NCBI RefSeq assembly: GCF_903933125.1
Contig: NZ_CAIZIZ010000383.1
Location: 1-41,911 of the forward strand
Direction of reading: 5' to 3'
Length of the DNA stretch: 41,911 nucleotides
DNA from: an uncultured Lamprocystis sp.
Lineage (GTDB): Bacteria > Pseudomonadota > Gammaproteobacteria > Chromatiales > Chromatiaceae
How positions within the stretch are numbered: position 1 is the first letter of the stretch; each line of letters starts with the position of its first letter. Both the position numbers and the translations under genes were made by a program. Below, in pieces: positions 8,577 through 19,130 of the stretch. The notes below the pieces were generated by a model that saw only the letters and a program-made list of their open reading frames with translations, did no database searches and was not told where the DNA came from.

Positions 8577-10151
8577 TCATGCCGCCTCGTCTACGGACTC
8601 ACTGTCATCGTCGTCAAGGGCTTGCGAATCGTCATCGTCCTCGTCGTCCTCGTCATCTTCACGAGGCGTCAGCACGATGGCGTTCGAGACCAACTGATGG
8701 AGGCTGACGATCTGGTCCATCTCCATCCCGTAATAGGGCAGGACCTTGGTGAACTGGCTCTTGCAGATGGCGCAGATCGCTGCCATGTGCGTCACGCCCT
8801 TCTCCTGCATGACATTGTTCAGCGCCTCGACGCGCGGTTGCGCACCCTTGACCCGCAACTCCATCAGGTCGTCGGTCAGCAGTCCACCCCCGCCGCCGCA
8901 ACAGAAGGTTCGCTTACGGATCGTATCCTCATCCATGTCGTAAAACTGGTTGCAGACCGCCTTGATGATGGCACGCGGGATATCGAACTGACCGCCGGGC
9001 TGATCACCCATCCGCGAGCCCCGGGCCACATTGCAGGAGTCGTGGTACGTGAGGATCTTGTCATCGTTCTGGGTCTTGTCGAAGGTCAACTTGCCCTGCT
9101 GGATCAGGTCGTAGGTAAACTCGCAGATATGCTGCGGCACCGGATACCGGGAATCCAGGAAGTCCCAGGGACCGGCCAGAGTGTTCAGAAAGCTGTAGGC
9201 GACGCGCCAGGCATGACCGCATTCGCCGAAGATGATGCGCTTGACCTTGAGCCGGATGGCCTCTTCGCGAATCCGCAGCGAGATCCGCCGCATGTTCTCA
9301 TAGGAGCCGATGAACATGCCGAAGTTAGCCGCTTCCGAAGCATAGGAACTGAGCGTCCAGGAGACACCGGCCTCGTGAAAGACCTTGCCGTAGCCGATCA
9401 GACCATCCACATGCGGTTCGGCAAAGAAGTCCGCGGAGGGCGTAACCAGCAGGATGTCCGCACCCACCTGATCGATGGGATAGCGCACCTTGACGCCGGT
9501 TTCGTCGTAGACGTCCTCTTCCAACCCCTCCAGCGTGTCCCGCAGGGCCGGACCCGGAAGACCCAGGTTGTTGCCGATCGTATAGACCTTGCCGATGATC
9601 TCGTTACAGTACTTCTGGCCAACCCCGATACTGTCCATGATCTCCCGCGCGGCCATGGAGATCTCAGCAGTATCGATGCCGTACGGACAGAAGACGGAGC
9701 ACCGGCGACATTGGGAGCACTGGTGAAAGTAACTGTACCAGTCGTCCAACACTTCCTTGGTGAAGTCAGTCGCGCCCACCAGCTTGGGAGCGATCCGGCC
9801 CGCGAGGGTGAAATAGCGCCGATAGACCCCGCGCATCAGGTCCTGACGCCCGACCGGCATGTTCTTCGGGTCCTTGGTGCCCAGGAAATAGTGGCACTTA
9901 TCCGTGCAGGCGCCACATTTGACACAGGAGTCCATGTAGACGCGCAGCGAGCGGTACTTGCCAAGCAACTCGCCCATCTTCGCGATCGCCTGCGCCTGCC
10001 AGTCGTCCGCCAACTCACCGGGAAAGCCCAGCGGGGCCTGGAATTCCGGTTTGGCTACAAAGGGCGCGCTGTGAGCCATGGTACCAGGCGTCACCGCCGG
10101 TACCTGCGGGTACTGCCGCAGCGCAGGGACTACAAAAGTGGCCTTAGCCAT
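8577..10151 (-). CDS. dsrK: DsrK, HdrD-like catalytic subunit of DsrMKJOP
   Basis: A 524-residue cytoplasmic iron-sulfur protein. Two ferredoxin-type cysteine groups come first (CVKCGACTDKCH and CSQCRRCSVFCPYG). Two CCG-domain regions like those of heterodisulfide reductase follow (GECGHAW with YHDSCNVARG; FCCGGGGG with ICAICKSQF), which hold the special [4Fe-4S] cluster thought to act on the DsrC disulfide/trisulfide. The last 28 residues form a strongly acidic Asp/Glu tail. GAGG lies seven bases before the ATG. It lies between dsrM (83 bp) and dsrL (99 bp). Confidence 0.95.
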   Translation of the reverse strand: MAKATFVVPALRQYPQVPAVTPGTMAHSAPFVAKPEFQAPLGFPGELADDWQAQAIAKMGELLGKYRSLRVYMDSCVKCGACTDKCHYFLGTKDPKNMPVGRQDLMRGVYRRYFTLAGRIAPKLVGATDFTKEVLDDWYSYFHQCSQCRRCSVFCPYGIDTAEISMAAREIMDSIGVGQKYCNEIIGKVYTIGNNLGLPGPALRDTLEGLEEDVYDETGVKVRYPIDQVGADILLVTPSADFFAEPHVDGLIGYGKVFHEAGVSWTLSSYASEAANFGMFIGSYENMRRISLRIREEAIRLKVKRIIFGECGHAWRVAYSFLNTLAGPWDFLDSRYPVPQHICEFTYDLIQQGKLTFDKTQNDDKILTYHDSCNVARGSRMGDQPGGQFDIPRAIIKAVCNQFYDMDEDTIRKRTFCCGGGGGLLTDDLMELRVKGAQPRVEALNNVMQEKGVTHMAAICAICKSQFTKVLPYYGMEMDQIVSLHQLVSNAIVLTPREDDEDDEDDDDSQALDDDDSESVDEAA

Positions 10152-10234
10152 GGTTCAACCTCATGTTCGGACGCCTGCGTACCCGGAGACCCTGATCATT
10201 TCACGTGATCACGAAACGCAATCCGCATCGGCCA

Positions 10235-10966
10235 TCACCGCTGTTCGAGCCGCGCCGCCCAAGGGGCCAGGTGCCGACGCTCCCGCGGGTTGTCGACCTG
10301 ATTGCGGGTCGGGCTGAAGAAGAGCCCGGGCGCATGCAGCAACTTGCTGAAGGGAAAAATGATCATCAGACCTGCCACCAGGAACAAGTGGAGCAGGAGC
10401 AACGGATCGGCCGGCAAGGGCTGCAGATCGAAGCTGTACAGACCGAGAAAGAAGGCTTTAACGGACACGATATCCGTATGAACCACGAAACTCATCAGGA
10501 TGCCGCTACAACCGATGAGGACCAGCAGCCCGAGTATCAGGTGATCCGAGGGAGAAGAGATGTAGCGCACCCGGTCGACCAGGAAGCGCCGTGCCCAGAG
10601 TCCAGCCAGGCCCAGCACCATGGCAAACCCGGCGTAGATCCCGAACGGCTGAATGAACGCGATCGGTGTCGGGACTGGATCCATGAAATAACGAAGGTGA
10701 CGCAGGGTTACGAGAAACAATCCAAAGTGAAAGATCCAACTGAAGATCCAGGTCCACTTGTTGCCGCGGAACAGGCTCTCGAACAGCACCACCTCACGCG
10801 TCATCCGCAACACGACACCGCTGTTGGTGATCGGCGCCGGTGTCGTCGGTATCTTCAGTGGCGCCGGCGTACGGGCGTACTGCACCACCTTCCAGGTCAG
10901 TCCGGCAACCAGAACCAGCGCCGCAAAATAGAATGCGAAGGCGTATAAACCCGTCAGAAACGACAT
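10235..10966 (-). CDS. dsrM: DsrM, NarI-like cytochrome b membrane subunit
   Basis: A 243-residue membrane protein with five or six hydrophobic helices, beginning MSFLTGLYAFAFYFAALVLV. It resembles the gamma subunit of respiratory nitrate reductase (NarI), and histidines within helices (for example in IFHFGLF and LLLHLFLV) fit diheme b coordination. With DsrK it makes the membrane-cytoplasm part of DsrMKJOP, which exchanges electrons between DsrC and quinone. A 228-bp gap with hairpins separates it from dsrC, the largest gap inside the operon. Confidence 0.93.
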   Translation of the reverse strand: MSFLTGLYAFAFYFAALVLVAGLTWKVVQYARTPAPLKIPTTPAPITNSGVVLRMTREVVLFESLFRGNKWTWIFSWIFHFGLFLVTLRHLRYFMDPVPTPIAFIQPFGIYAGFAMVLGLAGLWARRFLVDRVRYISSPSDHLILGLLVLIGCSGILMSFVVHTDIVSVKAFFLGLYSFDLQPLPADPLLLLHLFLVAGLMIIFPFSKLLHAPGLFFSPTRNQVDNPRERRHLAPWAARLEQR

Positions 10967-11152
10967 GTTTCCGCTACCTTAAGTGAATCCGGTCGAAAAC
11001 CGGGGGCGCCGACCGCTGACCCCGAACGGAGCGATCAGCGATCAGCTTGACCGGCGCCGCGCTGCTGCCTGGCGAGCCCCGGGGGTCTCGACGCAGACTG
11101 TAGAAACGCTCGCAAGTCCTCGTTATTTTATCGTCGGACGAGCGACATCAAA

Positions 11153-11169
11153 CCGCCCTCGCGAGGCGG
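11153..11169 (-). terminator. hairpin after dsrC, weak terminator or 3' stabiliser
   Basis: A GC-rich stem (CCGCC/GGCGG around CTCGCGA) starts 26 bases after the dsrC stop and is followed on the minus strand by TTTGATG. The T-run is short, so partial termination or 3' end protection of a dsrC-rich transcript is more likely than a full stop, since dsrM and the rest follow in the same direction. Confidence 0.4.
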
Positions 11170-11194
11170 AGAGCGCCACCCGCAGTCACTCGGT

Positions 11195-11533
11195 TCAGAC
11201 GCAGCCGGTCGGCTTCGGGAGCCCGGCAAAACGGCAGGCCTGCTTGGCCGGCCCGTAGGGGAACAGGCTGTAGAGGTACTTGCTGTTGCCCTTGTCCTTG
11301 CCCATCTTCTTGCCGACCGCCTTGGTCAGGACGCGCACCGCCGGTGCGATCTGATACTCTTCGTAATACTCACGCAGGAACTTGATGATATCCCAGTGCT
11401 CGTCGGTGAGTTCAATGTTGTCCTGCTTCGACATGACCTCGGCAACGCCGGGCTCCCAGTCGTTCAGGTTGGCGAGATAACCCTCTTCGTCGACGGCGAT
11501 CTGTTTGCCATTGACGTCAATTGTGTCGGCCAT
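11195..11533 (-). CDS. dsrC: DsrC, sulfur carrier with two redox cysteines
   Basis: A 112-residue protein matching the DsrC/TusE family over its whole length. The flexible C-terminal arm carries both conserved cysteines at positions 100 and 111 (KQACRFAGLPKPTGCV), the same numbers as in A. vinosum. The arm inserts into DsrAB and carries the sulfane sulfur received from DsrEFH. A GGAGA motif lies seven bases before the ATG. It lies 37 bp after dsrH. A paralogue lacking both cysteines is encoded at 17696-18034. Confidence 0.97.
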   Translation of the reverse strand: MADTIDVNGKQIAVDEEGYLANLNDWEPGVAEVMSKQDNIELTDEHWDIIKFLREYYEEYQIAPAVRVLTKAVGKKMGKDKGNSKYLYSLFPYGPAKQACRFAGLPKPTGCV

Positions 11534-11570
11534 TGCGATTCTCCAGACAGTTTTTTAAGTTGGAATAAAA

Positions 11571-11879
11571 CTACAGCCAGGCCTGAACCTTGGCGTTCTC
11601 CGCGGCAAGATCCACAAAACCCGCGTAGTCCACGACGCTGATCCCGTTGATCAGGCGCCCCTCGGCAAAGCCCCGCGCCTTCAGGTCCGGGCCGAGGACA
11701 TAGATCTTAACCCTGTTGAGGGCATCTTTGACCTGATCCTCGGCGCTCGTGCCGGTCAGGGCCGCATAGACGCCGTCCTCGATCAGCAACACGGCGGCGC
11801 CCGGCTGGGCAAACTTCAAGCAGGAATCCAGTGAGGTCCGCTCGAACGGGGACTTGTTGACAGTGTGCAGGATACTCAT
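11571..11879 (-). CDS. dsrH: DsrH, sulfurtransferase subunit (TusB-like)
   Basis: A 102-residue subunit of the DsrE2F2H2 hexamer, homologous to TusB. Cys20 (SLDSCLKF) matches the conserved cysteine of DsrH, although transfer itself is mainly attributed to DsrE. The end KVQAWL is typical of the family. An AGGGGAA motif precedes the ATG. It starts 11 bp after dsrF, consistent with coupled synthesis of the three subunits. Confidence 0.94.
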   Translation of the reverse strand: MSILHTVNKSPFERTSLDSCLKFAQPGAAVLLIEDGVYAALTGTSAEDQVKDALNRVKIYVLGPDLKARGFAEGRLINGISVVDYAGFVDLAAENAKVQAWL

Positions 11880-11890
11880 GGCATTCCCCT

Positions 11891-12301
11891 TTAGAAGCTG
11901 AAGACCACGTCGGACGCATCCATCAGCTCGCGGACACGGGCCGAATCGATCACCTCGACGATGTTCTCCACCTCTTCCTCGGTGTCGAAATCTTCCCAGG
12001 CGATCTGTACCAGATCGTCCTGCGTCAAACCGCGGGCCGCGAGCGAATCGCGATCAACGTAGACATTCTTGACCTCGTAGTCACCCAAGGTACGGAAAGT
12101 CGGCGAGAAATTCTTCATCCCGATGCCGCTGGTGTCCTGACCCTTGGTGAGTTGGTAAACGCCGTCATCCAGGAAGAGGACGCTCACTTCCTGATCGAAG
12201 GCCGCGCCGATCAGGATCACCTCCAGGGCCTCCCAGGCGTAGATGGTGCCATACGGGGCTTTGCGGTTCAGGTACAGGAATTTCTTCACGATTTCGGACA
12301 T
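11891..12301 (-). CDS. dsrF: DsrF, sulfurtransferase subunit (TusC-like)
   Basis: A 136-residue subunit of DsrEFH, homologous to TusC, beginning MSEIVKKFLYLNRKAPYGT. It contains no cysteine, as expected for a subunit that builds the hexamer and does not carry sulfur. The start at 12301 lies 13 bp after dsrE; an open frame extending upstream of it is only a shadow of dsrE. The C-terminal half is unusually acidic (DFDTEEEVENIVEVID). Confidence 0.94.
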   Translation of the reverse strand: MSEIVKKFLYLNRKAPYGTIYAWEALEVILIGAAFDQEVSVLFLDDGVYQLTKGQDTSGIGMKNFSPTFRTLGDYEVKNVYVDRDSLAARGLTQDDLVQIAWEDFDTEEEVENIVEVIDSARVRELMDASDVVFSF

Positions 12302-12314
12302 GACTGAGCCCCTG

Positions 12315-12707
12315 TTAGTCGCCGAATACAACGAGGCGATCGGACTGGATCGCCGCCTCGACCAACTGCCCCAGACCGGAGATCCGGAACCGGGGGTGGA
12401 TATTGGTGGCGTCCTTGCCGTTGCGTGTCGCCTCGCCCTCGTCGACGATCCCGCGGCGCTGCGCCGCGGCCACGCACACCACCATATCGAGGTTGTAGCG
12501 CTCGGCAAGCTCAGCCCACCGGTTGACGATGTGGCGGTCGTCCTGGGGCGGCGTGGTCAGCCGCGTCGCGTTGTTCACGCCGTCGTGGTAGAAAAAAACG
12601 CGGAAAATCTCATGCCCCTTCTCCAACGCCGCCTTGGCGAACAGGTAGGCGGTATCCGCCGCCTGATGTTGGTAGGGTCCCTCGTTGATCTGAAGTGCAA
12701 ACTTCAT
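12315..12707 (-). CDS. dsrE: DsrE, active sulfurtransferase subunit (TusD-like)
   Basis: A 130-residue protein homologous to TusD. Cys78 (NLDMVVCVAAAQRRGI) falls at the same number as the essential sulfur-binding cysteine of A. vinosum DsrE. It passes sulfane sulfur to DsrC within the DsrEFH hexamer. The start at 12707 (MKFALQINEGPYQHQ) follows GAGGGCGAT and gives the family length; an in-frame start further upstream would add 13 unrelated residues. A 130-bp gap with a hairpin separates it from dsrB. Confidence 0.95.
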   Translation of the reverse strand: MKFALQINEGPYQHQAADTAYLFAKAALEKGHEIFRVFFYHDGVNNATRLTTPPQDDRHIVNRWAELAERYNLDMVVCVAAAQRRGIVDEGEATRNGKDATNIHPRFRISGLGQLVEAAIQSDRLVVFGD

Positions 12708-12773
12708 ATCGCCCTCGAATAGCAGTGCCGAAAGAGGATCGCACACGGCCGCCCCGGATCAGGTCCACCGCGA

Positions 12774-12797
12774 CTGCCGTCCGGACAGGACCGGCAG
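12774..12797. other. hairpin in the dsrB-dsrE gap
   Basis: CTGCCGTCC pairs with GGACCGGCAG (one bulged base) around a five-base loop in the 130-bp space between dsrB and dsrE. No T-run follows in the direction of transcription, so a role in RNA processing or stability is the simplest reading. Confidence 0.4.
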
Positions 12798-12837
12798 GTC
12801 GGTGACACACGGCTCCGGGGCCCCCGCGCCCCCGACC

Positions 12838-13908
12838 TTAGAAGCGGATGTAAGACGAACTGTTGAAGCTCGCACGCGCACCGCGCCAGGTATCGATGTG
12901 ATACTTGGTGAACGGCAGCTCGACCTCTTCAAAGAAGCGTGGCCAGCCGATCCGCTCGATCCACTCGTTGATGCGCTCCCAATCCCGGGCGCCTTCCTTG
13001 TACGCCTTGAGGATGCGCTTGACGATAGCGGTCGCCTCAGGCCAGCGCGGCGGGTTGTTGGGGATACCGGCGGCGACCAGCTTCTGGAAGGTCGGCTTGC
13101 CGCGGGCGTTGGAGTGATTGCCGCCAACCCAGATCGCCAGCTTGGAGTGCTCGGCGTCATTGATCTGCATGGGCGGGCACGGTGGGTAGCAGGCACCGCA
13201 ACAGATGCACTTGCGCTCGTCGACCTCAAGGGACGGCTTGCCGTTGACCATGGCCGGGCGGATAGCGGCGACCGGACAGCGCGCCACGACGGTCGGACGC
13301 TCACAGACGTTCGCTACCAGATCGTGGTTGATCTTGGGCGGCTTGGTATGCTGGATATTGATCGCGATATCGCCCTGGCCGCCGCAATTGATCTGGCAGC
13401 AAGACGTCGTGATATGCACCCGATTCGGCATATTCGCATTGCGAAATTCGTCGATCAGCTCGTCCATCATGGATTTCACCACGCCCGAGGCATCAGTGCC
13501 GGGAATATCGCAGTGGAGCCAGCCCTGGGTGTGAGAGATCATGGCCACCGAGTTCTGGGTGCCGCCGACCACAAAACCCGCCCCTTCCAGCGCCGCGATC
13601 AGCGGGTCGACCTTGGTCTGATCCTTGACCAGAAATTCGATATTCGAGCGCAGGGTGAAATGCACGAATCCGTCGGCGAACTGATCACCGATATCGCACA
13701 GCTTGCGCAGCGTGAAAACGTCCAGGATCCGCTGGGTACCCGCCTTGACGGTCCAAATCTCATCGCCGCTGTAGGCCACGTGACGCAGCACGCCCGCCCG
13801 CGGATGTTCGTGATACTTCCACTGCCCGAAATTCTTGCGCATCACGGGGTGCAGGTACTGCCAAGGGTCTGGGCAGCCGGATTCGATCGGCTCACGCGTG
13901 TCTGCCAT
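12838..13908 (-). CDS. dsrB: reverse dissimilatory sulfite reductase beta subunit
   Basis: A 356-residue subunit of the cytoplasmic DsrA2B2 enzyme, which in this organism type works in the oxidative direction and releases sulfite from DsrC-bound sulfur. The siroheme/[4Fe-4S] cysteines lie in TTSCCQINCGG, and a ferredoxin insert shows CICCGACYPPCPP. The start at 13908 (MADTREPIE) is supported by GGAGGGAAGG just upstream; an in-frame GTG/ATG six codons earlier has no such signal. It lies 94 bp after dsrA. Confidence 0.96.
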   Translation of the reverse strand: MADTREPIESGCPDPWQYLHPVMRKNFGQWKYHEHPRAGVLRHVAYSGDEIWTVKAGTQRILDVFTLRKLCDIGDQFADGFVHFTLRSNIEFLVKDQTKVDPLIAALEGAGFVVGGTQNSVAMISHTQGWLHCDIPGTDASGVVKSMMDELIDEFRNANMPNRVHITTSCCQINCGGQGDIAINIQHTKPPKINHDLVANVCERPTVVARCPVAAIRPAMVNGKPSLEVDERKCICCGACYPPCPPMQINDAEHSKLAIWVGGNHSNARGKPTFQKLVAAGIPNNPPRWPEATAIVKRILKAYKEGARDWERINEWIERIGWPRFFEEVELPFTKYHIDTWRGARASFNSSSYIRF

Positions 13909-14002
13909 CGCCTTCCCTCCAGTCAATTATCAGAGTGTGTCGTATTTGAAATCGGGTGCCGGAGCGAGCGTAAGCCCGGCATCACAGCGTTGATCGAGAA
14001 AC

Positions 14003-15256
14003 TCAGCGCCCGGCCTCGGCCTGACGTTCGAACCAGTTTTCCGCGGCCTCGTCCCAACCGTCCAGGCGGATGTAGGAACTCTGACGGGGATGGCTCAGCA
14101 TGTTCGGGTCCGGGTCGACACCAATGCCGTCGAGGAAGTTGGCCAACCCGATGCGCTCGATCATTTCACCGCAGCGCTCGTGTTCCAGCCCGTTCTCGGC
14201 CCAGAAATCGATGATGGTCTCGGCGAGCTCCACCAGGGATTCGTAGTCTTCCTCGGTATCAAGCTTCTTGAACGGCACCAGCACCGTGCCCATCAGGTCA
14301 CCGATCTTGAGGGTGCGCTTACCGCCGATCAGAATGGTGACACCCTTATCGTCGCCGGGGTGCAGCGCCTTGGGCATGACGTTCAGACAGTGCATGCAGC
14401 GCACGCAGTCGCGGTTGTTGACGTTCAGGGTATCGTCATCGTTGAGCGACAACGCCTGCGTCGGACAACGGGTGATGACGTTGTCCACATAGTACTGACG
14501 GCCCTTGTCGGCAATGTAGTTCTTCACCTCGGCCTGGTCGACCTTCATGTCGTCGCGCCAGGTGCCAAGCACGGCGAAGTCGGCGCGCTCGATGGCGTTC
14601 TGACAATCGTTGGCGCAGCCGGAGACCTTGAACTTGAACTTGTAAGGGAGCGCCGGACGGTGCACGTCGTCAACGAAGTTGTTCACCAGCATCCGATGGG
14701 CCTTGATCTCATTGGTGCAGGACATCTCGCAACGCGCCGCGCCGACGCAGGACATCGCCGTGCGCACGCAGGGGCCCGCGCCACCGAGGTCCCATCCGTA
14801 TTCGTTGATCTCATCGAAGAAATGCTGGGTGTTGGCAGTGTCGGTGCCGATGAACATGATGTTGCCGGTCTGACCATGGAAGGTGATCAAGCCGGACCCA
14901 TATTTTTCCCAACTGTCGGCCAGTTGGCGCAGCATGGCGGTGGAGTAGTGGTTGCCCGCCGGCGGCTGCACACGCAAGGTATGAAATTCCTTGGATTCAG
15001 GGAACGCCTTACCGACCTCGGAGAAGCGCGGGATGATACCGCCGCCATACCCTAAGACCGACACAGTCCCGCCCTTCCAGTAGCCCTTGCGCGTCTCGTA
15101 GGAGTGCTCCAACTGCCCGAGCAGGCTGTTGGTCATCTTATTGATGCGTTCATCCGGGTGCTGGTCGCGCAGACGCTTGATACCAGAGATGAAACTTGGC
15201 CAGGGGCCGGTCTCCAGTTGATCGAGCATCGGGGTGCTGTATTTATCGATCGCCAT
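14003..15256 (-). CDS. dsrA: reverse dissimilatory sulfite reductase alpha subunit
   Basis: A 417-residue subunit and the first gene of the operon. The siroheme-[4Fe-4S] motifs are C-x5-C (CVGAARC) and C-x3-C (CANDC), about 55 residues apart. The ferredoxin insert shows CVRCMHCLNVMP together with an upstream RCPTQAL. It forms the catalytic A2B2 enzyme with DsrB. Together with dsrL and dsrEFH it marks the oxidative (sulfur-oxidizing) Dsr type. A GGAGAG motif lies before the ATG. The operon is read away from the divergent cluster that starts at 15849. Confidence 0.97.
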   Translation of the reverse strand: MAIDKYSTPMLDQLETGPWPSFISGIKRLRDQHPDERINKMTNSLLGQLEHSYETRKGYWKGGTVSVLGYGGGIIPRFSEVGKAFPESKEFHTLRVQPPAGNHYSTAMLRQLADSWEKYGSGLITFHGQTGNIMFIGTDTANTQHFFDEINEYGWDLGGAGPCVRTAMSCVGAARCEMSCTNEIKAHRMLVNNFVDDVHRPALPYKFKFKVSGCANDCQNAIERADFAVLGTWRDDMKVDQAEVKNYIADKGRQYYVDNVITRCPTQALSLNDDDTLNVNNRDCVRCMHCLNVMPKALHPGDDKGVTILIGGKRTLKIGDLMGTVLVPFKKLDTEEDYESLVELAETIIDFWAENGLEHERCGEMIERIGLANFLDGIGVDPDPNMLSHPRQSSYIRLDGWDEAAENWFERQAEAGR

Positions 15257-15577
15257 TGCACTGTCTCTCCGATCTGGTAGCTTGCGAAAAAGAATCCGAT
15301 CGCAATGCGCACACCCGAGCGCGGCAGCGGGCCGTTACGGGGCGCTACATCGTTGCGAATCTAAAGACGGTGGGATCGGCGATCATTCGTATTTTCGCGT
15401 GCCGAAATCCCCAGCGTCAGGCGCTACTTTAAAGGCTGGTCCGGGGCGCTCCCATCCCTCGGTGGGGAGGGCGATACCGCTCCGATCTACCCCTTTCGGG
15501 ATATTGACCGACCTGGTGCCGCTGCGGATGTCCTCCAGCATGTCGCGGCGCGTGCGCGTCTTTCGATGACCGGTTGG

Positions 15578-15606
15578 ATGTTACCGATGGGCGGCCAGTC
15601 AGTCAA
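15578..15606 (-). promoter_or_regulatory. candidate dsr operon promoter
   Basis: On the minus strand TTGACT (15606-15601, five of six to the -35 consensus) is followed after 17 bases by TAACAT (15583-15578, four of six to the -10 consensus). This would give a leader of about 315 bases before dsrA. A TATAAT also occurs on the minus strand at 15639-15634, but it lacks a good -35. Consensus matching only; not proof. Confidence 0.3.
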
Positions 15607-15612
15607 CGGTTA

Positions 15613-15641
15613 CTAATATTAGCACATCCTAATATTATAGT
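15613..15641. promoter_or_regulatory. paired AT-rich palindromes, candidate operator, with plus-strand -10
   Basis: CTAATATTAG (15613-15622) is a perfect 10-bp palindrome. CTAATATTA recurs at 15629-15637, 16 bp further on, so the two would lie on roughly the same side of the helix after 1.5 turns or act as a pair. They lie directly upstream of the candidate dsr -35. They also overlap where the -35 would be for a plus-strand TATAGT (15636-15641) that could serve the 15849 gene. This arrangement suggests a shared regulator site. Confidence 0.4.
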
Positions 15642-15848
15642 GCATCCCGCCGTGCGGACCGCCTGTCCCGGCCGCGCCGCGGCCGACGCGCCCCGTTGAC
15701 AACGTGCGCGGCGACAGGCAGCAATGCCAAACAACGTCTGCCCGCCACTGGCGGACGGTGGTGTGGGACAGGCCGCCCGCTTGCATTTCCGCGGAACGAT
15801 CTTCACGTTCGCCCCAGACAAAGGCATTCAGGGCGGTCTCATCGAACC

Positions 15849-16040
15849 ATGCTCAAGCTCAGCGACATTCTCGTGACCCACCAAGAAGTGGAGTCTTTCG
15901 GCGAACTCATCCCGCTGGTTCAGGACGTCGCCCGCGGCGGGGAGCGTTTTTTCCGGATGGACGTGAAACCACCCTACCCGGATACGCCGGACAATTGGGA
16001 AGATCGTCTGGAAGCCGCTTTCAGCGGTCTGATCCGCTAA
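15849..16040 (+). CDS. small conserved-looking protein of unknown function
   Basis: A 63-residue protein with no recognised family, no signal peptide and no cysteine. It begins MLKLSDILVTHQEVESFGEL and holds a hydrophilic middle with FFRMDVKPPYPDTPDNW before a short helical end. Codon use and composition become protein-like from this ATG; the open frame extends upstream, but that part is Arg/Gly-rich shadow sequence. The ribosome binding site is weak. It is followed after 7 bp by the next gene, so the two are probably one unit. It is read divergently from dsrA, which suggests a link with sulfur oxidation. Confidence 0.6.
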   Translation: MLKLSDILVTHQEVESFGELIPLVQDVARGGERFFRMDVKPPYPDTPDNWEDRLEAAFSGLIR

Positions 16041-16047
16041 GTCCGTG

Positions 16048-16779
16048 ATGCCTAATCCTATGATCAACCCTCTCGACCTGCTGACGGTCAGCTTGACCAA
16101 TCCGACCGTCGATCCCCAGCTTGACCAGAGCGAACGCGCGGCCCTGGAATCCCATCTTGACGCGCTCCGGGAGCGTCTTCGCGAGCTTGAACGACGTGAC
16201 GGAGCGGCAAAGGCGGTCGCCGACACCCGGCTGCAGGTCGCACGTACCCTGGTCGGATTGGGGCGTGGGGAAGCGGCTTGGCCACTCGCCCGCACGGCAT
16301 TCGATCGCTTCCTTGAGGCTGACGACTTTGAATCCGCGGCCGACGCCTGCGACGTGTTGTTCCAAGCCGAACAACCCGCATCGATCTGCGCTTTGGGCCA
16401 GGGCATCTGGCTGGCGGTCACCTGCCCCATCGATCCGGAACTCACCATTGAGTTGCTGGCGCATGTCATCGACGAGACCCCGGACGACGCCGACGGGGCC
16501 GCGGTGGCGGCGACCACCGCCCTGTTCCTGGCGGACGTGCGTGCCGAGGGCAAACATCGCGACGACCTGATGTTCTTCACGACGCAATTGCTCGGTGCCG
16601 TGGCGCGGCGACATAGCGGGGTGGAATCACCCGCGCAACTCGACGCCTGGATGGAACGGCTTGACCTGACCCAGCCGGAGCACTTCCTGGTGCGCTTACG
16701 CAGTGTCGTCGATTGCCTGGTGCAGGGGGACTGGTGGTTCGATCGCGAAGCATTGCAGGAGCGCCTACCCTTCGGCTGA
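16048..16779 (+). CDS. helical protein of unknown function in dsr-linked cluster
   Basis: A 243-residue soluble protein. Residues 25-60 are rich in Glu, Arg and Leu and could form a coiled coil. The rest looks like paired helices of a TPR-like solenoid (for example ARTAFDRFLEADDFESAADA), so a scaffold or binding role is possible. I do not recognise a family. A GTG three bases upstream and an ATG at 16060 are alternative starts. It sits 7 bp after the 63-residue gene and 86 bp before the Cas6-family gene. It has no catalytic motif, signal peptide or membrane segment. Confidence 0.7.
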   Translation: MPNPMINPLDLLTVSLTNPTVDPQLDQSERAALESHLDALRERLRELERRDGAAKAVADTRLQVARTLVGLGRGEAAWPLARTAFDRFLEADDFESAADACDVLFQAEQPASICALGQGIWLAVTCPIDPELTIELLAHVIDETPDDADGAAVAATTALFLADVRAEGKHRDDLMFFTTQLLGAVARRHSGVESPAQLDAWMERLDLTQPEHFLVRLRSVVDCLVQGDWWFDREALQERLPFG

Positions 16780-16865
16780 GCGCTCCTGCCCGCCCCCAAC
16801 GACGCGCCCGGCCCCGGGACATTCATTTGGAGGAGGCTTGTCATCACCCCGTCACGAGCATCTGT

Positions 16866-17552
16866 ATGTATTGGAGTCAAGACGAAACCCTCGACACCCT
16901 GGCCGTCCCCGATACCATCGTTGACTGCCTCTTCGCGATCGAATGTCGCGCCCTGCCGGTCGATCACGCCTATGCGCTGAGCAGCGCGCTGGTCGCCGCG
17001 TGCCCCTGGATCGGCGAGGAACCAGGGCTGGGCATCCACACGGTTCACGTCGCCGGCTCGCAGAATGGTTGGGAACGCCCGGCCCACGGCACTGAGAGTC
17101 AAATCCAGTTATCGCGCCGCACCAAACTCATTCTGCGGCTGCCCAGGGCGCGCGCGCCCGCGTTACTCGACGCGCTGCCCGGCACCCGGATCGAGGTCGC
17201 CGGCGCGCCTTTGACCGTCGGCGCGGGCAAGCTGCGGTCGCTGGGCACAGAGAGCGTGCTGTTCGCCCGCTATCTGGTGTCCACCGCGGATCCGGATGAG
17301 GAGGCATTCATGAACAGCGCCGCTCAGGCGCTGGCGCTGCTGGGGATTCAGATCCGCAAGGCGCTCTGCGGCAAGTCGAACACCCTGGAAACACCGAACG
17401 GCGCGATCACGACCCGCAGCTTGTTGCTCGCGGGACTGAAACCCGACGAGTCGCTCCGCCTGCAACAGCAGGGACTCGGGCTCCACCGTCTCATGGGATG
17501 TGGCATCTTCATCCCTCACAAAGGGATCGACGCGGTCGGCAAGGCCCCCTGA
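16866..17552 (+). CDS. Cas6/Cmx6-family (type I-MYXAN) protein without a CRISPR array
   Basis: A 228-residue protein that I match to the Cas6/Cmx6 family, a RAMP-fold RNA endonuclease group. Family features seen: the start MYWSQDE, CRALPVDHAYALS (His34), GIHTVHVAGSQNGW, LSRRTKLILRLP, LCGKSNTLETPNG and the C-terminal Gly-rich segment GLGLHRLMGCGIFIPHKGI, which corresponds to the RAMP glycine-rich loop. No repeat-spacer array and no other cas gene lie in the window. Its neighbours are a helical protein and a cysteine-free DsrC paralogue beside the dsr operon, so it may process a different RNA or have lost its CRISPR role. The ribosome binding site is weak. Confidence 0.75.
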   Translation: MYWSQDETLDTLAVPDTIVDCLFAIECRALPVDHAYALSSALVAACPWIGEEPGLGIHTVHVAGSQNGWERPAHGTESQIQLSRRTKLILRLPRARAPALLDALPGTRIEVAGAPLTVGAGKLRSLGTESVLFARYLVSTADPDEEAFMNSAAQALALLGIQIRKALCGKSNTLETPNGAITTRSLLLAGLKPDESLRLQQQGLGLHRLMGCGIFIPHKGIDAVGKAP

Positions 17553-17612
17553 TGAACTCGGGCGATTGCCGTCAAGTCATGTAACGAGATCGTGACGAAC
17601 CCATCAGAATAT

Positions 17613-17624
17613 CATAAAATTATG
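17613..17624. promoter_or_regulatory. small AT-rich dyad before the dsrC paralogue
   Basis: CATAA and TTATG arms flank AA in the 143-bp space before the cysteine-free dsrC-like gene; TATCAT just before it could be a -10 element. It suggests that this gene has a promoter of its own. Weak evidence. Confidence 0.25.
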
Positions 17625-17695
17625 GGGCTTTAATTGGCGCCCTCACTGGCGTGCGCCATGGTCACCCACCGAGACAGACGACGAGGAACAAGCAC

Positions 17696-18034
17696 ATGGC
17701 CATCGAGGTCAATGGCGTAAGCATCGAGACGACCGACCACGGCTACCTGGTCAACCACCTCGACTGGAACGAGGATGTCGCGCGCAAACTCGCGGAGATC
17801 GAGCGGATCACGCTCACTGATAAACACTGGGACGTCATCAACTACCTGCGCGACGAATACATCAACAACGGTCAGAACCAGCCGATGGAACGTGCTGTTC
17901 TCAAGGACATCGGCAAACGCTGGGGGACCAAGCCCGCCAGCAAGGACCTTTACCTCCTCTTCCCCCTGGCCCCGACCAAACAGGGCACCAAGATTGCCGG
18001 ACTCCCCGAAGTGATGCGCAAAGGCGGCTACTGA
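17696..18034 (+). CDS. DsrC/TusE-family protein lacking both redox cysteines (RspA-type)
   Basis: A 112-residue protein aligning with DsrC along its whole length (ITLTDKHWDVINYLRDEYI and YLLFPLAPTKQGTKIAGLP). It contains no cysteine at all: the equivalent of Cys100 is Thr (KQGT for KQAC), and the C-terminal arm ends VMRKGGY, two residues longer than in DsrC. It therefore cannot carry sulfur. DsrC homologues without cysteines have been grouped as RspA, thought to be regulatory. The start has AGGA eight bases upstream. The fold's helix-turn-helix-like region fits a DNA or RNA binding idea, but that is inference. Confidence 0.88.
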   Translation: MAIEVNGVSIETTDHGYLVNHLDWNEDVARKLAEIERITLTDKHWDVINYLRDEYINNGQNQPMERAVLKDIGKRWGTKPASKDLYLLFPLAPTKQGTKIAGLPEVMRKGGY

Positions 18035-18058
18035 GCCGGTGCCGCGCGGTGCATCGGA

Positions 18059-18088
18059 GCGGGCCGGCCGCGTCGGGGGCCGGCCCGC
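18059..18088 (+). terminator. GC-rich hairpin after the dsrC paralogue
   Basis: GCGGGCCGGCC and GGCCGGCCCGC form a perfect 11-bp stem with an 8-base loop (18070-18077), 24 bases after the stop at 18034, and are followed by ATCTTG. The T-run is poor, but the stem is the strongest GC hairpin near the end of this plus-strand cluster. Confidence 0.5.
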
Positions 18089-18116
18089 ATCTTGCCCGCC
18101 AGCCGAGCACACGCCG

Positions 18117-19130
18117 ATGTCGGCCGCGCGACCACAAAGACCGCAGGAGGCAGCCGCGCCCCACTTCGCGCGATTTGGTCAACGGCTGCTGCTGAGTGCC
18201 CTGCACCGGCTGCTACGCGTCGACACACCGCCGCGCCTCGCGGTGCTGATTTTCCATCGCGTGCTGCCCACCAATGACCCCTTCCTGGCGAGCGACCCGG
18301 ACGTCCAGGCCTTCGCCGAACTCATGCGTCTGGTCCGTAAGCGCTTCTCGCCACTGTCCTTGGCCGAAGGTTTGCATCGACTCACACGCAACACCCTGCC
18401 GCCACGCGCGGTCAGCGTCACCTTCGATGACGGCTACGCCGATAACGTCGAGTTCGCTCTACCCGTCTTACAGCGCCTGGAGATTCCCGCCACCCTGTTC
18501 ATCGCCAGCGGCTACCTTGATGGCCGGTGCATGTGGAACGATCGACTCTGTCAGGCCATCAGGCGCTGCCCCGGCACTAGCGTCGATTTGACCCCCTACG
18601 GTGCCGGTATCCGGCCGCTGGGTGGACCGCGGGAACGCGCCATGCTGGTGCGGGACCTGCTTCGTCTATTCAAGTACCAGGCACCGGAGCATCGCGAACA
18701 AGTGGCGGCGGATCTCGCGGCCCGCTATGCACCGGACCTAACCTCACCCATGGTCACTCGCACCCAGGTTAGGGAACTTTACGACCAGGGGGTCGAGATC
18801 GGGGGTCATACCGTCACCCATCCGATCCTCGCACGGACCCCGGATCAGACGGCCTATCGGGAGATCGCCGAAAACAAAGAGGATCTCGAAGGACTGCTGG
18901 GCACGCGCCTGCGCTTCTTCGCCTATCCCAATGGGAAGCCGGACCTGGATTTCACCGCGGCGCATACCGCCATGGCGCGCGCACTCGGGTATCAGGCGGC
19001 GTTCACCACGGGTCACGGGGTCGCCGTGGCCGGCACGGATCCCATGCGCCTGCCCCGCTTCACCCCCTGGGAGCGAACACCCATGCGCTTCGGTATCAGG
19101 CTACTGCTGAACATGCGGCACACAGCCTAG
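18117..19130 (+). CDS. polysaccharide deacetylase (NodB domain)
   Basis: A 337-residue carbohydrate esterase family 4 protein. NodB motif 1 is TFDDGY (residues 102-107, with the catalytic base and metal Asp), and motif 2 is GGHTVTHP with the metal-binding histidines. FFAYPNGKPD and LPRF provide later motifs. It probably removes N-acetyl groups from an exported polysaccharide. No signal peptide is evident, so it may act in the cytoplasm or at the membrane. The start at 18117 is preferred over an upstream in-frame one because the extra part overlaps the GC hairpin. Its stop is 2 bp from the left 25-bp inverted repeat. Confidence 0.85.
   Translation: MSAARPQRPQEAAAPHFARFGQRLLLSALHRLLRVDTPPRLAVLIFHRVLPTNDPFLASDPDVQAFAELMRLVRKRFSPLSLAEGLHRLTRNTLPPRAVSVTFDDGYADNVEFALPVLQRLEIPATLFIASGYLDGRCMWNDRLCQAIRRCPGTSVDLTPYGAGIRPLGGPRERAMLVRDLLRLFKYQAPEHREQVAADLAARYAPDLTSPMVTRTQVRELYDQGVEIGGHTVTHPILARTPDQTAYREIAENKEDLEGLLGTRLRFFAYPNGKPDLDFTAAHTAMARALGYQAAFTTGHGVAVAGTDPMRLPRFTPWERTPMRFGIRLLLNMRHTA

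Follow-up and report, generated by a model that had tools for sequence, protein, structure and literature searches.

A Cas6-family gene in a conserved gene cassette beside dsrA of sulfur-oxidizing proteobacteria

A stretch of 41,911 nucleotides from an uncultured Lamprocystis sp. (contig NZ_CAIZIZ010000383.1, positions 1 to 41,911), called here the window, carries four genes divergent from dsrA that code for a small protein, a helical protein, a Cas6-family protein and a DsrC-like protein devoid of cysteine. These genes almost certainly form a conserved module that is accessory to the oxidative (reverse) Dsr pathway and lies divergently from dsrAB, whose Cas6 belongs to a lineage of its own that tracks dsr and not CRISPR. 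We propose tentatively that the module might process or bind RNA at the dsr operon through the repurposed Cas6 and its partners, the thiol-free DsrC-like protein linking this activity to the state of the pathway.

Gene order and co-occurrence with dsrA

A preliminary description of this DNA had noticed four plus-strand genes beside dsr, and all four are indeed plus-strand open reading frames (ORFs) divergent from dsrA (Table 1). The products of the first three (small, helical and Cas6-family proteins) have no match to a Dsr family in Pfam or NCBIfam. The helical gene has an alternative possible start, GTG at 16045. A gap of 143 base pairs (bp) separates the Cas6 gene from the DsrC-like gene, so that a single transcript shared by the cassette can at most be presumed.

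Conservation of the cassette was assessed in two sets of loci that overlap in genomes. Set A joins the window to 60 fetched loci anchored on Cas6 (n=61), while set B consists of 80 named loci, the best of 153, for which the helical gene served as anchor. Set A features dsrA at 50 loci, the small gene at 54, the helical gene at 53, a DsrC-like frame ending in GGY on the cassette strand at 48, a gene for a TauD-family dioxygenase (PF02668) at 17 and one for DUF6967 (PF22295) at 2. Among the best 80 of 153 loci of set B, Cas6 is found at 71, dsrA at 67, the small gene at 68, the GGY-ending DsrC-like frame at 59 and TauD at 43. All five genes, dsrA included, are present at 39 loci of set A and 50 of set B, invariably in the order dsrA(-)/small-helical-Cas6-DsrC-like(+) (39/39 and 50/50), and wherever dsrA is found it lies on the strand opposite to the cassette (50/50 and 67/67 loci). 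Chance linkage was rejected on this identity of order; nor is the gene set fortuitous, its composition and arrangement being repeated across many genera. The record titles give as hosts Thiocystis, Allochromatium, Thiorhodococcus, Thiocapsa, Thiohalocapsa and Chromatium, and further Ca. Thiobius, Ca. Thiodiazotropha, Sedimenticola, Sulfuricaulis, Muproteobacteria and Betaproteobacteria. In A. warmingii (L132) and A. palmeri (L135), both of the genus Allochromatium, the small, helical and Cas6 genes adjoin dsrA. Of the 60 fetched loci, 47 joined the window in row set A1; the 13 omitted were near copies, fragments, L074 (which has an in-frame stop), L090 as the CRISPR copy, and others. The 41, 45 and 42 rows of A2, A3 and A4 were chosen likewise.

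The preliminary description had expected the gene families to accompany dsr and not to occur equally in genomes without it, and this is what the genome surveys gave. Of 93 related genomes, 62 have Cas6, while the helical protein and dsrA were found in 58 each. Cas6 and dsrA are concordant in 87 of the 93, both being found in 57 and neither in 30; five genomes have Cas6 alone and one (G045) dsrA alone. In four of the five, dsrA is cut at the contig end (L045, L069, L076, L081), and in the fifth the contig begins just upstream of the small gene (L063). The helical protein occurs together with dsrA in 53 of the 58 genomes that carry it. Thirty-five genomes belong to other families of the class, and in these Cas6 and dsrA occur in the identical nine, six of them also with the helical protein. 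At the level of the phylum (397 genomes), dsrA was found in 39 and PF09559 in six, exactly the dsrA-positive genomes of the same class; PF09559 is absent from all 358 dsrA-negative genomes and from all 33 out-of-class dsrA-positive ones. Profile searches for Cas6 and the helical protein covered 56 of these genomes (38 dsrA-positive and 18 dsrA-negative), and that for Cas6 gave 5/5 same-class dsrA-positive, 0/18 same-class dsrA-negative and 0/33 out-of-class dsrA-positive genomes.

The proteins also diverge in parallel. At the 33 loci from which all five proteins were recovered, the distances of Cas6 and DsrA are correlated with a Mantel r of 0.77 (0 of 999 permutations), and those of the helical protein and Cas6 with r 0.86. 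When the dsrA, small, helical, Cas6 and DsrC-like products are taken pairwise, the ten values fall between 0.67 and 0.86.

Table 1. Positions of the cassette genes, of dsr and control elements in the window, and of variant genes at other loci
Feature	Position	Strand	Remarks
Small protein gene	15849..16040	+	ORF, 63 amino acids; no known family
Helical protein gene	16048..16779	+	ORF, 243 amino acids; predicted TPR-like alpha superhelix
Cas6/Cmx6-family gene (presumed RNA endonuclease)	16866..17552	+	ORF, 228 amino acids; PF09559, TIGR02807
DsrC/TusE-like gene without cysteine	17696..18034	+	ORF, 112 amino acids; PF04358; C-terminus RKGGY
dsrA, divergent neighbour of the cassette	14003..15256	-	strand opposite to the cassette
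dsrC proper	11195..11533	-	for comparison; both arm cysteines; C-terminus QACRFAGLPKPTGCV
Divergent control region, dsrA to cassette	15257..15848	.	592 bp
Palindrome 1, TATCCCGAAAGGGGTA	15488..15503	-	consensus CTATCCC-N4-GGGATAG; window copy not exact
Palindrome 2	15453..15471	-	consensus CCCCCC-N4-GGTGGAATA; window copy weak, with 5 mismatches
TauD-family gene (example)	L111:11577-12446	-	PF02668
DUF6967-Cas6 fusion ORF	L114:8974-9861	-	295 amino acids

Several loci depart from this association and weigh against it. G045 has dsrA with no Cas6 or helical match, and its contig runs for 1.7 kb after a TauD gene without a small gene. Chromatium weissei (L171) has a complete cassette, and dsrA was not found within about 9 kb upstream. 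Nine of the helical loci of set B (best 80 of 153) are free of Cas6: L151, L166 and L178 stop at most 215 bp past the helical gene, L206 has 699 bp left, and L161, L192, L193, L198 and L203 run on. Outside the class, L250-L253 feature TauD, small and DUF6967 genes divergent from dsrA and no Cas6, and L255 has small and DUF6967 genes beside dsrA with neither TauD nor Cas6. Cas6 is thus dispensable to part of the module, since such reverse Dsr loci do without it.

The Cas6-family protein and CRISPR

The window protein matches PF09559 (E 6e-65, 219 bits, curated cut-off 26.7) and TIGR02807 cas6_cmx6 (E 2e-36, 125.8 bits, curated cut-off 98.85). Among solved structures its profile found a single relative, the Cas6 protein from a CRISPR system of type I-B (8fcj chain B, E 2e-23). 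His34 and a G-rich loop, which we take to be catalytic parts of Cas6, are well conserved. His34 is kept in 51/52 dsr-linked rows and 8/8 CRISPR-linked rows, G205, G211 and G213 in 52/52 dsr-linked rows and G203 in 50/52, all four glycines being present in 8/8 CRISPR-linked rows. The dsr-side protein presumably has, judging from these residues, an intact active site without CRISPR. Its rows feature in addition E145 (52/52; P or A in the CRISPR-linked rows) and K219 (51/52), and the gamma rows have a short insertion around N67-G68-W69. In the tree a 99/99 branch splits the 52 dsr-linked rows from the eight CRISPR-linked ones, which are L090 and seven cyanobacterial plasmid genes, six of these seven adjoined by cas3. 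The window protein gave no match at E 1e-3 in the phage and plasmid collections.

The earlier suggestion of an RNA-endonuclease-type protein outside CRISPR stands: the neighbours of the gene are dsr and cassette genes, and no array-like direct repeats were found within the window. A Cas6 displaced from a CRISPR locus might mature CRISPR RNAs (crRNAs) in trans. Membership of the type I-MYXAN Cas6 family and the retained presumed active site are compatible with such a role. So is the distribution of Cas1, present in 49 of the 93 related genomes and more frequent with Cas6 (42/62) than without it (7/31); this excess is perhaps due to kinship. Maturation in trans is nevertheless extremely improbable. 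Cas1 is missing in 20 of the 62 Cas6-positive genomes, including the single-contig G048, G076 and G091, the dsr-linked proteins form a separate clade, and none of the 358 dsrA-negative genomes has PF09559. Moreover, among the 93 genomes only G050 has a second copy of the family, the two pieces in G020 being parts of a single split gene. This second copy (L090, G050:C18) is a different gene on a contig shared with cas1 and the sole CRISPR-side copy found in this survey. The reading as a CRISPR accessory was rejected on the Cas1-free genomes, the clade of its own and the distribution that tracks dsrA. With PF09559 restricted to six same-class dsrA-positive genomes of 397, the label of PF09559/TIGR02807 as a CRISPR gene can mislead in sulfur oxidizers.

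Partner proteins and variant cassettes

The DsrC-like protein of the window matches PF04358 (E 3.4e-32) and TIGR03342 (E 6.7e-28) over nearly the whole length. It has zero cysteines, as the preliminary description had read from the sequence. Proteins of this type retain the DsrC body together with the LFP..P.KQ and AGLP segments, and their RKGGY C-terminus is invariant in 42/42 aligned proteins. Because this end replaces the thiol arm, we infer that the protein cannot carry sulfur in the manner of DsrC. A GGY-ending DsrC-like protein was found in 12/12 dsrA- and Cas6-positive genomes tested, and in the near-complete genome G039 the closest copy sits elsewhere than at the cassette. Out of the class, four of six genomes have a GGY-ending copy away from dsr, as read from the C-termini; of the remaining two, G326 matched to the profile end and G452 did not. 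Ten dsrA-negative genomes gave no DsrC-like match reaching the profile end. RspA is a name for cysteine-free DsrC relatives, which the window protein may resemble as a DsrC-like protein lacking the arm cysteines; an open-access literature search for RspA together with DsrC returned only unrelated papers.

The small protein has the core motif E(R/M)FFR.DVKPP..DTP..WEDRLEAAF. The view that it has no known family holds in Pfam, NCBIfam and PADLOC, and its AlphaFold model (predicted local distance difference test, pLDDT, 88) found no match in the PDB, the best E being 3.5. The same view of the helical protein stands for sequence profiles, with no match above cut-off, and gives way at the level of the predicted structure, which looks TPR-like. 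The model (pLDDT 91) is an alpha superhelix whose top row in VIA-align is a Gpsm2 (LGN) chain (Z 14.1, root-mean-square deviation 3.9, 170 aligned). Many of its best solved matches are titled TPR, although helical repeats reach such Z values easily; the best Foldseek E is 0.015, and the window protein has no TPR profile match. A plasmid search with the helical protein gave no match. Homologues of this protein at L161, L192, L193, L198, L203 and L206 have neither Cas6 nor the small gene adjoining; dsrA was not found within about 9 kb upstream at L161, L192, L203 and L206, and at L193 and L198 the upstream sequence is too short to judge.

Distant helical homologues are encoded by 27 of the 33 out-of-class dsrA-positive genomes (best E 2.5e-20 to 4.4e-12). 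Among the seven of their loci that were read, L116, L117 and L118 also have dsrA on the stretch. Those at L116:9786-10433 (+), right after dsrAB and one further gene, and L117:7538-8194 (-) lie near dsrAB in genomes of another class with a more distant dsrA.

The cassette exists in several forms. The TauD-family gene often lies between dsrA and the small gene, and is not found there in the window. A short type, divergent from dsrAB in four same-class genomes (G275, G293, G309, G399), comprises genes for DUF6967, for Cas6 and for a DsrC-like protein with the C-terminus GKGGY; a TauD gene follows at a distance of 1-3 kb. In G309, DUF6967 and Cas6 are fused in one ORF (PF22295 at residues 1-66, PF09559 at 95-287), which suggests a physical partnership. 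L084 (G090; L084:2729-4683, -) has TauD, small, DUF6967 and Cas6 genes consecutively, divergent from dsrA, and is a form joining the variant types. DUF6967 occurs in 8/299 phylum genomes, all eight dsrA-positive; in G326, TauD and DUF6967 (L254, L256) are on a contig other than that of dsrA. The small protein was rejected as a DUF6967 member, given the lack of a profile match, an hhalign probability of 1.3 and the presence of both genes side by side in L084 and the out-of-class loci. The next gene at L251 and L252 resembles, by sight only, that of sirohaem synthase.

These partners bring in the main rival to a role in RNA processing, namely that the Cas6-fold, TPR-like and small proteins form a protein-level assembly or quality-control complex for DsrAB/DsrC in which RNA plays no part, the thiol-free DsrC-like protein being a placeholder that occupies the DsrC site. 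A DsrC body without its reactive arm would suit a placeholder, superhelices of the TPR-like kind typically serve as scaffolds for protein binding, part of the module is found without Cas6, and the distant helical homologue of L116 follows dsrAB with a single gene in between. A complex of this kind, which we consider somewhat unlikely, gives no reason for the constancy of the nuclease residues in Cas6.

Control region and possible roles at the dsr operon

A palindrome TATCCC-N4-GGGATA is present, with at most two mismatches, in 44 of the 49 control regions that have both dsrA and the small gene, and palindrome 2 was scored in 43 of the 44, 41 times at a spacing of 30-34 bp and twice at 37 bp; the counts are not independent because the control regions are related by descent. 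A search of 22 genomes found exact TATCCCN4GGGATA in 13 of them, with 16 sites in all and 10 of these at dsr, and gave no occurrence of the reversed control pattern. A distance held constant at about three helical turns points to a regulator that binds DNA. With this spacing and their low number per genome, the tandem palindromes are likely to be binding sites of a dsr regulator, and they may resemble NarL/FixJ-type sites. They might alternatively be RNA hairpins and themselves the substrate of Cas6: the arms of 6-7 letters around a 4-base middle, and the low number per genome with 10/16 exact sites at dsr, would be in keeping with this. Their spacing (30-34 bp in 41/43) is expected of a protein on one DNA face, palindrome 1 lies by eye upstream of the presumed dsrA -10, and the arm letters are conserved beyond pairing alone, making hairpin substrates very unlikely.

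An Rfam scan of 10000-18500 gave no matches, and no conserved RNA element was seen by eye in the gap between Cas6 and the DsrC-like gene. The dsrC-dsrM gap, 10967-11194 in the window, has hairpins in many gamma-type loci, a candidate stabiliser or attenuator of dsrC mRNA. Of the 93 gamma-type rows, which repeat some genomes, 46 have a hairpin that exceeds mononucleotide shuffles, and among rows without Cas6 the figure is 0/2; long hairpins are found in 0/60 dsrH-dsrC and 2/58 dsrM-dsrK gaps. As an obligate Cas6 substrate the dsrC-dsrM hairpin gained no support.

The preliminary description had suggested, as one possibility, a DsrC-like sensor that informs an RNA-processing enzyme acting on dsr mRNA hairpins, and the retained presumed His and G-rich loop of Cas6 are compatible with such a role. 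RNA processing by the module could proceed as follows. An ancestral Cas6 would have been repurposed as an RNA-binding endonuclease that works without crRNA. In concert with the small protein (or DUF6967) as partner and the TPR-like protein as scaffold, it would target dsr operon transcripts and determine in what ratio, or for how long, their segments persist (dsrEFH/dsrC versus dsrA and dsrMKJOP). The thiol-free RKGGY protein would compete with, or read out, the binding partners of DsrC, and this readout would tie RNA processing to the state of the pathway. The kept presumed active site, the strict tie to dsr in presence, gene order and protein distances, the Cas6-positive genomes without Cas1, the DUF6967 fusion, the LFP..P.KQ segment and new invariant C-terminus of the DsrC-like protein, and uneven dsr transcripts speak for this proposal. 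In Allochromatium vinosum grown on sulfide the dsrEFH and dsrC transcripts exceed that of dsrA, according to PMC3397948, citing Grimm et al. 2010, and this is what uneven RNA processing would give.

A number of observations argue in the opposite direction. Uneven transcript levels have other explanations, and no RNA substrate for the Cas6-like protein was identified in the sequences examined. The control-region palindromes have the appearance of sites for DNA binding. The dsrC-dsrM hairpin exceeds shuffles in only 2/7 beta-type rows with Cas6, and stem scores of at least 9 are no commoner in that gap (37/93) than after the DsrC-like gene (19/46). His34 is absent from the Cas6 of G399, and Cas6 itself is lacking over part of the range of the module.

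A more specific form of the RNA-processing proposal would make Cas6 the guide-free cutting subunit of a metabolic RNA switch in proteobacterial sulfur oxidizers, with the thiol-free DsrC twin sensing DsrC loading or occupancy and the TPR-like and small (or DUF6967) subunits relaying the signal, thereby setting the site and rate of dsr transcript processing; as a whole this is unlikely. The Cas6-like protein might also process other RNA, such as a small RNA, tRNA or the cassette leader, its link to dsr arising from shared regulation. The DsrC relative TusE acts in tRNA modification (PMC3397948) and a conserved palindrome lies upstream of the cassette, both in line with this idea. A general tRNA role is improbable because the presence of Cas6 tracks dsrA so closely, and Rfam gave no match in 10000-18500; processing of other RNA is on the whole quite unlikely.

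No description of the module was found in the open-access literature, subscription papers lying outside the search, and it looks undescribed as an accessory to sulfur oxidation. Among the matches listed, the papers that combine Cas6 with at least two of dsr, sulfur oxidation and Allochromatium mention Cas6, in the portions available, in connection with CRISPR genes. The sections of PMC5944118 at hand place a DsrC-like gene of Thiodictyon syntrophicum, THSYN_22565, near the dsr cluster (THSYN_22480, 22490-22545); in those sections no discussion of the genes in between was found, and DsrC is described, citing Grimm et al. 2010, as binding DNA upstream of dsr. Word searches found no 'cas6', 'CRISPR' or 'DUF' in the main text of a 2024 paper on Dsr-mediated sulfur oxidation (PMC11406059) and no 'cas6', 'CRISPR' or 'DUF6967' in PMC10504309.

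If the module is what it appears to be, purple sulfur bacteria and sulfur-oxidizing symbionts (Ca. Thiodiazotropha, Ca. Thiobius) carry a conserved dsr accessory system in which a lone CRISPR processing protein is retained for a non-CRISPR purpose, and control of the dsr operon becomes directly testable through single gene deletions.

The module is neither a CRISPR locus nor a named Dsr component; its parts come from known folds and families, and its mechanism is a proposal. Its Cas6 shares with type I-MYXAN CRISPR Cas6/Cmx6 the family (TIGR02807, PF09559), His34 and the G-rich loop, and differs by forming its own clade away from cas genes and arrays and by E145, K219 and the gamma-row insertion. 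The DsrC-like protein matches the profile of the DsrC/TusE/DsvC family (TIGR03342) and keeps LFP..P.KQ and AGLP, whereas an RKGGY end (GKGGY in the short type) replaces the PTGC(V/I) of the family and the window copy is without cysteine. DUF6967, likewise small, precedes Cas6 in the short type as the small protein does in the window, and in G309 it is fused to Cas6; by hhalign DUF6967 and the window small protein are unrelated. Exapted CRISPR parts (PMC8730458; CRISPR-regulated toxin-antitoxins, PMC9458426), as far as the accessible text of these papers describes them, are likewise CRISPR components with another purpose; those systems use guide-like RNA or several Cas proteins, whereas the dsr module has a single Cas6 and belongs to energy metabolism.

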